Notes under the pieces: generated by a model | Databases searched by the model: none | Told to the model about the DNA's origin: nothing | What the model saw: only the letters and a program-made list of their open reading frames with translations | Part shown: piece after piece, positions 6,231 to 30,769 of the stretch | How the letters are laid out: each line of letters opens with the position of its first letter | How positions within the stretch are numbered: the stretch's first letter is position 1 | Made by a program: the position numbers and the translations under genes | Origin: a virus | IMG/VR virus record: IMGVR_UViG_3300025087_000029 | Span: 1-33,809 of that record | Length of the DNA: 33,809 nt | Direction: 5' to 3' (one strand)

Positions 6231-7559
6231 ATGAATAAAAAACCATTTTATTTTCAAATGGCGGTCAAAGAAGTCGTTACTGATGAAGCCGGCGCGGTGC
6301 GTATTCGTGGATACGCCTCGACACCGGATCTTGATCGCTACCGTGACATTGTGGAACCGACGGCTTTTAAGGATGCCCTCGGAATGTATTTAAAAAATCC
6401 TGTCCTGCTCCGCTCACATAATCCAGACAAGCCGGTCGGCTTAGTGGATGTGGCGACCATAACAGAAAAAGGATTGTGGGTTGAAGGAATAATCAAAGAC
6501 AAAGAGATGGCCGACGAAATCAATGCCGGTCTTTTTCGTACCCTTTCGATTGGTTATATGGCCAATCGTACCGAACTCCAACATGAAGACGGGACAGCGT
6601 TTGATCCAGCAAAAGATGATCCGTGGGATAATTCACTTGTGCGAGTTATTAAAGAGCTCGACCTCGTCGAAATCTCAATCGTGGCCACCCCGGCCAATGG
6701 CAATGCCCTGTTTACATTAGCAAAATCGCTCAAGTCACTAACCCGCCAGCTCGCACTCAAGAGCTTTGGCTTGGAAGCGAAAGATGAAGGAAACCACGAT
6801 GAAGGTGATCCCGAAGGTGAAAAAGAACCAGAAACTCCAACTACCGAGGAATCCTCGGAAACTGAAACACCAGCAGAAGCAGAAGGCGAAAAAGCCACCG
6901 AGGAAAAACCGGAATGCACAACAGATGACGGAAAGCCCGGCCATATGGTGGACGGTGAATGCGTTGCTAAAAAAGAAGATGAAAAGCAAAGCGAACCGGA
7001 AAAAAAGGAAGAACCAGAAGCTCCGTCAGAACCTGCAGGCGAGGCCATACAATCAGATGAACAACCAGAAGGCAAAACCGAAGGCGAACAAACCGAGGAA
7101 GCTGAGAAGGCGGGTGAAACCCCTGCCGCCGAAAGTGGTGAAGGCGTAACAGCCGAGGAACCAGTAACGGAAGCGACACCGGCAAGCGAGCCAGAGGCCG
7201 CGCCAGAAGGCGATCAAAGCGAGAAGGCAATCGTCCTGACTAAGGACTTGGCCGACAAACTCCCAGCCCTAAAGACCGTCGGAGCAATCCGCGAGCAAGA
7301 AGGCGGGGAAAAGACAGCCGAGCTGACGAAGGCGACGATGATCCTACTCGTTAAGCTCCACGACGCGCTTGTGAACGAAAACAAGCGTGCTAACGAGCTA
7401 CAGGAAACATTGGACAACACACCCGAGAAAAAAGTGCTGTCCCCGCATAAACAGTTTGCGGCCGAAGAACCGGCCAAGGATGAGACCAAAGAAGCCGAAA
7501 GGCGGCCGAAGTCTCAAACCAGTCAATTCTTCATGAATTTATTCACCCCTAAAAGTTAA
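6231..7559 (+). CDS. HK97-family prohead protease with long acidic scaffold-like tail
   Basis: A 442-aa protein. Residues 1-170 form the U35-type prohead protease, with a likely catalytic His63 in RSHNPDKPVG and Ser106 in RTLSIGY, plus the segment EISIVATPANGNAL (about 151-164). Residues about 185-330 are extremely rich in E, P, A, K and T with loose repeats (EPEAP, EGEQTEEAEK, SEPEA) and few hydrophobics. Residues 345-420 become helical again. HK97-type capsids need a scaffold, which may be a separate protein, the capsid delta domain, or a fusion to the protease. No separate scaffold gene is seen, and the capsid protein seems to lack a long leader, so a protease-scaffold fusion is inferred. 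The low-complexity part could also simply be a linker. Confidence 0.9.
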   Translation: MNKKPFYFQMAVKEVVTDEAGAVRIRGYASTPDLDRYRDIVEPTAFKDALGMYLKNPVLLRSHNPDKPVGLVDVATITEKGLWVEGIIKDKEMADEINAGLFRTLSIGYMANRTELQHEDGTAFDPAKDDPWDNSLVRVIKELDLVEISIVATPANGNALFTLAKSLKSLTRQLALKSFGLEAKDEGNHDEGDPEGEKEPETPTTEESSETETPAEAEGEKATEEKPECTTDDGKPGHMVDGECVAKKEDEKQSEPEKKEEPEAPSEPAGEAIQSDEQPEGKTEGEQTEEAEKAGETPAAESGEGVTAEEPVTEATPASEPEAAPEGDQSEKAIVLTKDLADKLPALKTVGAIREQEGGEKTAELTKATMILLVKLHDALVNENKRANELQETLDNTPEKKVLSPHKQFAAEEPAKDETKEAERRPKSQTSQFFMNLFTPKS

Positions 7560-25463: not shown

Positions 25464-26534
25464 ATGAAATACTTCTCAACATTCAGCGGTGTTGGAGGGT
25501 TTGAAATAGGAATACAAAATGCTTATGCAAAGAATTGGCGGATGGAAAATAAAGAAGGATCGGATCTTTGCATGGAACGCACGAGATCCGAAGAAGGGAA
25601 CGGTACAGGAGAGTCTGATTTACGTCCTAAACGCGATAGTGGATTCCCTGACTCGCAATCCCCCTCGTGTATTGGTTTCTCCGAGATCGACAAATATGCC
25701 TCCGCCGTCCTTAAATATCGATTCCCTAACACCCCAAATTATGGCGACATTGAAAAAATCAATTGGAGTGAAATACCCGACTTTGACCTACTCGTCGGTG
25801 GAAGCCCGTGCCAGGATTTCAGCGTGGCTGGAAAACGTAAAGGCATTGGCGGAGCAAGGTCGGGATTATTTTTTGAGTACGTCCGTGCGCTCAAACAAAA
25901 ACGTCCTGACTTTTTTATCTGGGAGAATGTTAAAGGCGTTCTCTCGATCAATCGAGGATTCGATTTTGCAGCAATCCTCTCTGAGTTTTCCGAAGCAGGG
26001 TATTCTCTCTGGTGGCAAGTTCTCAACGCCAAAGATTTCGGTGTCCCTCAAAACCGAGAGCGCATCTTTGTCGTCGGTTCTCGAAACACAAGTGCCAGAG
26101 AAGTATTTTTTGAGCGACAAAATGACAAAATACATTCTATCCAGGATGAAACAGACGGACGATGGCCACAAGCCGAAGTTTGTGGAACTCTCAAAGGATC
26201 AAACATGAAGGCGGATAATACTTTCGTCATCCACAACATCTATGGCGGATTTAAAGAAAAGACCGTCCGAGAATTCCACGACTTCTCTCCAACACTCAGA
26301 ACGCCAAAAGGTGGCGGTCACATTCCAAATCTTACGAACGGAAAAACGATCCGCCGTTTTACTCCGACCGAATGTGAAAGGCTGATGAGCTGGCCAGACG
26401 ACTGGACGAAATACGGAATAGACGAACAAGGCAAAAAAATGGAAATACCAGACGGCCAACGATACAAACTTTGTGGCAATGGGGTGGTGAGCAGGGTGGT
26501 GGCCGAGGTTGTAAAAGCCCATTTATCCACATGA
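25464..26534 (+). CDS. dcm: DNA (cytosine-5) methyltransferase
   Basis: A 356-aa C5-cytosine methyltransferase. Motif I is FSGVGGFE (residues 7-14). The SAM-binding loop is followed by a non-conserved, hydrophilic insert of about 45 residues (about 22-67), then SEIDKYA (about 73-79). Motif IV is GGSPCQDFS with catalytic Cys116, motif VI is WENVKG (Glu154), motif VIII is QNRERIFVVG (from 196), and the C-terminal motifs are RRFTPTECERLMSWP and LCGNGVVSRVVAEVV. The target sequence is not visible. With Mom it gives the phage a second DNA-modifying activity, likely against host restriction. A second reading frame of 229 codons is open inside the gene (25519-26208). The end carries a DnaA box. Confidence 0.94.
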   Translation: MKYFSTFSGVGGFEIGIQNAYAKNWRMENKEGSDLCMERTRSEEGNGTGESDLRPKRDSGFPDSQSPSCIGFSEIDKYASAVLKYRFPNTPNYGDIEKINWSEIPDFDLLVGGSPCQDFSVAGKRKGIGGARSGLFFEYVRALKQKRPDFFIWENVKGVLSINRGFDFAAILSEFSEAGYSLWWQVLNAKDFGVPQNRERIFVVGSRNTSAREVFFERQNDKIHSIQDETDGRWPQAEVCGTLKGSNMKADNTFVIHNIYGGFKEKTVREFHDFSPTLRTPKGGGHIPNLTNGKTIRRFTPTECERLMSWPDDWTKYGIDEQGKKMEIPDGQRYKLCGNGVVSRVVAEVVKAHLST

Positions 26535-29800: not shown

Positions 29801-29940
29801 TATGATACAAAAAAGGATTAAATTCAGTATTAAAATAAGACCCGCAAAAGAAACGGACGACCGATGGTTTATTCCTCCAAAACCAGAGGGTGGCTCTTAA
29901 TACTGGCCATGATCCGTCCGTTTCTTTTGCGGGTTTTGTA
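29801..29940 (+). ncRNA. Candidate structured RNA or cruciform with 20-bp perfect stem
   Basis: Bases 29840-29859 pair perfectly with 29915-29934 (20 bp), enclosing 55 nt that can form at least one inner hairpin (29865-29870 with 29880-29885) and a short GAG/CTC stem. A TATGAT box (29801-29806) lies about 34 nt before the stem, and TTTTGT follows the right arm, as in a terminator. The RNA could be a small non-coding RNA, an antitermination or attenuator leader, or an origin cruciform. The 161-nt gap has no gene. The left -35 is poor. Confidence 0.62.
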
Positions 29941-29953
29941 ACAAAAAAAGAGT

Positions 29954-30769
29954 ATGGAAAACATCGAGATACGCGACCTTCGCCGCAAGCAATACTTCAT
30001 GGTTGACGACGAATACCTGAACGGTTATGCCCGACTGTGCGGAATAGCGGCAACCGGAGTTTATACCTCACTTTGCCGGCACTCGAATAAAGACCAAAAG
30101 GCGTGGCCGTCGATCCTGCTTATAGCTCAAGAGTTAGCAATTAGCGACCGGACAGTTAAGAGGGCAATCAAGACATTAACCGAATGGGGAATCATAGAAA
30201 CCGAGCGTTCGAGAAACGAAAAAACCAAGTGCTGGAATGTCACAATTTATACTCTAAAAGACAAAGTAAAATGGAAAGCAAAACCTCTCGAAAATAACCG
30301 AATTAAGAGCAAGCCACAGGACACCACGACCTATAGAGCCACAGGACACCACGACGGACACCCACAGGACAAAAACGACAAAAAGCCACAGGACACCACG
30401 ACCTCGAAAGGATACACAGTAGGTACTGAAGGAAACACATATCGTCTTGCGGAAGGCGAAAAAGCAAAACAACAAAAGACACAAAAACCTGAAACGATCG
30501 CGGTTGAAGTGATCCGAGAATTTAAAGAAGCCGGAAACGAAACATTGACTTACGGAAACATAACCCAGAGGACAGCGATCGAACGACTGGCTAAAACTCA
30601 CGGCGAGGATAAGGTGAGGATTGCGACGCGATATGCGATCTCACTCCAAAAGGAAACCTACGCCCCGCACATATCCACACCACTCGAACTCGAACTAAAG
30701 TGGCAAAAGCTTAGAGATTATTATGTGCGAGAAAAAGGCAGAAAAGGAGGGATCGCTTTCGTGAGCTGA
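29954..30769 (+). CDS. Winged-helix replication initiator-like protein
   Basis: A 271-aa protein. Residues about 18-100 form a winged helix: GYARLCGIAATGVYTSLCRH, ILLIAQELAISDRTVKRAIK and LTEWGIIETERSRNEKTKCW. It is like the N-domains of lambda O/DnaD-type initiators. The middle (about 115-160) is low-complexity with Q, D, T and H, and is encoded by DNA repeats (30313-30402). The C-terminal domain (about 170-271), with VIREFKEAGNETLTYGN and AIERLAKTHGEDKVRIATRY, may load a host helicase. No other initiator is present. Gene and repeats together resemble lambda O with its internal origin. The final call is inferred. Confidence 0.78.
   Translation: MENIEIRDLRRKQYFMVDDEYLNGYARLCGIAATGVYTSLCRHSNKDQKAWPSILLIAQELAISDRTVKRAIKTLTEWGIIETERSRNEKTKCWNVTIYTLKDKVKWKAKPLENNRIKSKPQDTTTYRATGHHDGHPQDKNDKKPQDTTTSKGYTVGTEGNTYRLAEGEKAKQQKTQKPETIAVEVIREFKEAGNETLTYGNITQRTAIERLAKTHGEDKVRIATRYAISLQKETYAPHISTPLELELKWQKLRDYYVREKGRKGGIAFVS
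30313..30402. repeat. Iteron-like direct repeats inside the initiator gene (candidate origin)
   Basis: The 18-mer GCCACAGGACACCACGAC occurs exactly at 30313-30330, 30338-30355 and 30385-30402. A degenerate copy is at 30361-30379. Starts are spaced 25, 23 and 24 nt. Copies 1 and 4 are read as PQDTT but copy 2 is in another frame (ATGHHD), so selection acts on DNA, not on protein. An A-rich stretch follows (about 30455-30490). The layout matches lambda ori iterons within gene O. Confidence 0.75.

Follow-up and report, generated by a model that had tools for sequence, protein, structure and literature searches.

Four iterons lie inside the replication initiator gene of an uncultivated phage, and this array is very probably the phage's theta-type replication origin, placed within its own initiator gene as in lambda and opened by the iteron-bound initiator. 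The sequence analysed was the IMG/VR virus record IMGVR_UViG_3300025087_000029, positions 1 to 33,809 (33.8 kb, hereafter the window). The repeats are constrained at the level of DNA, they keep a fixed position within the gene across relatives, and their sequence differs from phage to phage, shifting together with the recognition helix of the encoded protein. The original prediction had read the array as the phage origin, bound by the winged helix encoded around it. The comparison of relatives supports that reading, and from it we infer both the binding and a start of replication at the array.

Iterons in the linker-coding part of the initiator gene

Profile matches place the window initiator in the O-like/winged-helix initiator class. 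Pfam HTH_36 is matched with an E-value of 3.4e-11, above the family cut-off, and PHROG families for replication initiation, O-like and DnaD-like helicase loader proteins are matched at E 1.9e-13 to 1.9e-12, among them phrog_391 (O-like, E 3.8e-13) and phrog_270 (E 1.9e-13). In an AlphaFold2 model, built on a thin alignment and with a mean pLDDT of 57, residues 19–101 form a confident winged helix, residues 112–177 have a pLDDT <50 and less certain helices are found within residues 179–262. The iterons span codons 120–150, within the predicted disordered linker between the N- and C-domains (Table 1). As a single query the protein retrieved no relatives from IMG/VR or from species genomes; sequence searches gave no close solved structure (all E >0.02), and Foldseek returned generic winged helices only (E >1e-3). 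The window proteins that were scanned included no recognisable separate helicase loader. Elsewhere in the window, the protein encoded at 958-1767 matches the Mom-like DNA modification family phrog_1384 (E 2e-45), and 25464-26534 encodes a C5 cytosine methyltransferase.

Table 1 Coordinates of the array, its gene and neighbouring elements in the window, and of in-gene arrays at three further loci.
Feature	Record	Coordinates	Strand	Description and basis
Replication initiator gene	Window	29954..30769	+	271 aa; winged-helix HTH_36 N-domain, disordered linker, helical C-domain (Pfam, PHROG, AlphaFold2)
Predicted recognition helix	Window	30146..30184	+	Codons 65-77; AlphaFold2 helix H65-77; R70 at 30161-30163
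Iteron 1	Window	30313..30330	+	Exact 18-mer GCCACAGGACACCACGAC
Iteron 2	Window	30338..30355	+	Exact copy of GCCACAGGACACCACGAC; reading frame differs from other copies
Iteron 3	Window	30362..30379	+	Degenerate copy CCACAGGACAAAAACGAC: core CCACAGGACA intact, then AAAACGAC
Iteron 4	Window	30385..30402	+	Exact copy of GCCACAGGACACCACGAC
Second repeat element	Window	30408..30439	+	AAGGATACACA at 30408-30418, AAGGAAACACA at 30429-30439
A-rich tract, candidate unwinding region	Window	30460..30499	.	62% A, 33% GC; function inferred from lambda
In-gene array, 10-12 nt period	L006	4085-4134		
In-gene array, 10-12 nt period	L007	3900-4027		
In-gene array, 10-12 nt period	L009	1000-1051		

The three exact 18-mers and the one degenerate copy that had been predicted are all found, and the proposed periodicity of about 24 nt is borne out by core starts stepped 25, 23 and 24 nt. 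The degenerate copy resembles the iterons CCAGCGGACAAAAACGACC of L157 and CCAAGGGACAAAAACGACC of L160. The spacers are mutually unrelated, while three cores are identical. As inverted repeats the window iterons are poor, with an arguable right half-site that is only partial (CGACC). The array has the highest Tandem Repeats Finder score in the window (101 versus 52 for the runner-up), the iteron 17-mer has no further occurrence in the whole record with two mismatches allowed, and an Rfam search gave no match. The lone exact 17-mer match elsewhere in IMG/VR, a single copy on a microvirus-like contig, was set aside as chance. The cumulative GC-skew curve climbs steadily, with no turn near 30.3 kb, and is uninformative on the origin.

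Copy 2 is read in a different frame from copies 1 and 4, as predicted, and copy 3 shares the frame of 1 and 4. The corresponding peptides are KPQD, HPQD and KPQD for copies 1, 3 and 4 and ATGH for copy 2, and copies 1 and 4 encode the identical peptide KPQDTTT. Since only copy 2 is out of frame, the argument from this single gene that DNA and not peptide is kept rests on one copy; it is real but thin, and the case becomes much stronger once the relatives are included. Out-of-frame exact repeats reach 19 nt in the window gene, compared with at most 16 nt in 1000 recodings in which the protein was kept and synonymous codons were shuffled. Together with the mixed reading frames of the relatives, this upholds the claim that the DNA is what is conserved.

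Arrays and recognition helices in related phages

A pattern search of IMG/VR in which CCACAGGAC had to occur twice, spaced like the iterons, found HTH_36 genes in other phages (L022, L064, L082 and L120) amid collagen-like noise, and in these the same core DNA is read as PQDT, HRT or TGH. Matches to a relaxed spacing pattern were mostly collagen-like genes plus one structural protein family, and only the HTH_36 genes were kept. With profile searches we recovered 23 loci belonging to the window's family and a further 80 from an actinophage family; the comparison covered 94 distinct genes, with the window initiator and lambda O among them. In 61 of these 94 genes none of 40 synonymous recodings reaches the best out-of-frame self-match, the lags being mostly 19–25 nt or sums thereof, and the repeats of these 61 genes lie mostly at nt 310–430 of the gene, just after the winged helix. 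Within the window's family the strongest out-of-frame repeat is at gene nt 319–453 in all 20 surveyed relatives and beats every recoding in 16 of them, as expected from the prediction that repeats would be kept though the protein changes.

The relatives' repeats are read in different frames both within and between phages, with spacings that mix all frames. One contig (L131, the same contig as L148) carries four repeats at the window's spacing of 25/23/24, with the core CCGAGTGCAT / GCCGAGTGCA and not CCACAGGACA, all copies having changed together. Inverted arms were seen by eye in the iterons of L145, L149 and L151, and actinophage iterons are clear palindromes.

Several further arrays were observed alongside this comparison. 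Three loci of phages with a related RecT (L006, L007 and L009) have in-gene arrays of their own in initiator-like genes; these were excluded because they have no HTH_36 match, and in-gene arrays seem to extend beyond the HTH_36 protein family. An actinophage subgroup (L234, L238, L239 and L244) has the helix HPRRVxEAL or HPRRIxEAV and a different array (CACTAG / GTGCTGAAAAC-like), which starts ~450–540 nt into the gene versus ~350 otherwise. Two arrays of the 21-nt unit GCTCTACGCCGAGGGCAACAA, one with 12.7 copies, occur at 7031-7297 and 10377-10544 of L005 and are open in several frames on both strands.

Co-variation was evaluated in 66 actinophage genes by calling the iteron half-site automatically and ranking N-domain columns as its predictors. 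The top five columns (residues 55, 49, 52, 54 and 51 of L168) all belong to the recognition helix, and residue 55 reaches a z of 11.9 with half-site base 3. When shared ancestry was limited through disjoint pairs of closest relatives, with closeness judged outside the helix, residue 55 again came first of 67 columns (Fisher p 3e-5). For the window's family, 16 genes were compared with cores picked by eye, which is a weakness, and among N-domain columns the best predictor is R70 of the window protein, which corresponds by homology to actinophage residue 55. Arginine at position 70 goes with GGACA cores in seven of eight genes (the exception, L162, has CCGTGCATCA), N with GGMAA, and K or D with GTnnA or GTGCA; among actinophages R-N-V-Q-K pairs with TGTCG, and R-S/T-V-Q-R pairs with TGACG. 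Both families single out one and the same residue, which would be difficult to account for if the helix did not bind the repeats in its own gene, and the comparison gives strong support to such binding.

This co-variation supports binding and is silent on the purpose of binding. The repeats could hence be initiator-binding sites that serve mainly in operator or copy control, acting on the initiator's own expression or by self-titration, with replication starting elsewhere; in iteron plasmids such sites serve both control and initiation. We consider this improbable, given that no promoter-like site was recognised beside the array, which lies ~360 nt into the gene, that members of these protein families carry initiator annotations, that the array in the equivalent position in lambda is a proven origin, and that the window has no other comparable repeat array. 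Selection for a repeated linker peptide, KPQDTTT, of which the DNA repeat is a mere consequence, would fit the frame shared by three of the four copies and the identical peptides of copies 1 and 4, but it is highly implausible: copy 2 is exact yet out of frame, the out-of-frame repeat exceeds that of every one of the 1000 recodings, and relatives read the same core as three different peptides at spacings in all frames. A recent, neutral tandem duplication without function in a tolerant linker fares as badly, because although linkers tolerate duplication and exact copies may just be young, the three identical cores are separated by unrelated spacers, arrays sit at the same place in the surveyed relatives, the L131/L148 copies all changed together, and the tracking of the recognition helix by the repeats already contradicts it.

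The 3' side of the array and a possible opening mechanism

The motif AAGGATACACA trails the iterons in many relatives with differing iterons and is read in three frames; much of the window's family has AAGGATACACA as its second motif, the actinophages AACCATCC. At least two copies are present in 45 of 72 actinophage genes versus at most 19 in recodings, and in 12 of 21 genes of the window's family versus at most 9, a modest excess; both motifs were first spotted by eye and then tested on the same genes. A second repeat that is fixed clade-wide while the iterons change suggests a shared-factor or single-strand-binding site, and not mere AT-richness. Beyond it, ~57 bp from the last iteron, the A-rich tract is the lowest-GC 40-bp segment within 200 bp 3' of the iterons, and the side with the short repeats and the A-rich tract is the likely opening region.

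With the array as the origin, initiator dimers would bind the four iterons via their N-terminal winged helix, and the bound initiators would bend and wrap the DNA. The adjacent short-repeat and A-rich stretch would be opened on the 3' side, and the helical C-domain would recruit the host replicative helicase, directly or via a loader. The iterons may sit in linker-coding DNA because the linker peptide tolerates almost any sequence, leaving the DNA free to be maintained as a binding site.

A 23-bp inverted repeat, near-perfect and with its arms 55 nt apart, lies at 29837-29937, immediately ahead of the initiator start (RNA fold −56.4 kcal/mol, z −9.9). It is probably a terminator, though unusually long. 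L158 and L164 are among the relatives in which strongly folding stretches, two of them with T-runs, likewise occur upstream of the gene.

The array marks where replication of this uncultivated phage probably begins, but the main value lies in the set of self-paired proteins and DNA sites. Because each gene holds both reader and target, numerous winged helices can be matched to their DNA sites from sequence alone. The chances seem even that the phage winged-helix initiators whose genes contain iterons amount to a large natural library with a recognition code readable from genomes, with the fixed second repeat as a shared-factor or single-strand-binding site. The code for the window's family would then assign GGACA to R at the R70 position, GTnnA to K and GGMAA to N, and such a code, as well as the joint change of specificity in initiator and origin, becomes directly testable.

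Comparison with known systems

For in-gene origins or iteron–helix co-variation in phages, our literature search found nothing closer than lambda and the Stx phages; most subscription papers lay outside the search, and earlier reports may exist. In Bacillus phage SPP1, oriL is placed within the replisome organizer gene. Its G38P likewise is a phage-encoded origin binder that starts theta replication (PMC5615212), but SPP1 differs in encoding a helicase and a loader itself and in having oriR as a second origin. The Arthrobacter phages of the genus Decurrovirus (Toulouse, Decurro and Arielagos) resemble the window in that an in-gene repeat array comes after an HTH_36 domain, in a gene annotated as an HTH protein or an O-like initiator, and a related contig (L022) has the window core CCACAGGACA at steps of 19/24/23. 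They differ from the window in their high-GC hosts, palindromic iterons, another C-terminal region and the second motif AACCATCC.

Among lambdoid phages, each origin works specifically with its own O protein. The iteron sequence of lambda is unrelated to that of the window, its iterons are imperfect inverted repeats whereas those of the window are weaker palindromes, and the A-rich tract is farther from the last iteron in the window than in lambda. Lambda also has a separate P loader beside O, where none was recognised in the window, and the homology of the window initiator to lambda O consists of profile matches, not a direct alignment. In lambda, O dimers bind the iterons (PMC5043065), beside an AT-rich region that is needed for unwinding and not for binding (PMC7466680). 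This region lies 3' of the lambda iterons, the side on which the window has its A-rich candidate unwinding tract. The lambda record annotates four 18-bp iterons in O, from 349 nt into the gene at steps of 20/24/23 nt, compared with 360 nt and steps of 25/23/24 in the window. The repeats of lambda O likewise exceed all recodings in the out-of-frame test. Given the agreement in number, length and spacing of the iterons, in their place in the initiator gene after the DNA-binding N-domain and in the class of protein, the window array is very probably a further case of the known lambda-type in-gene origins, a design that recurs across distant phages.
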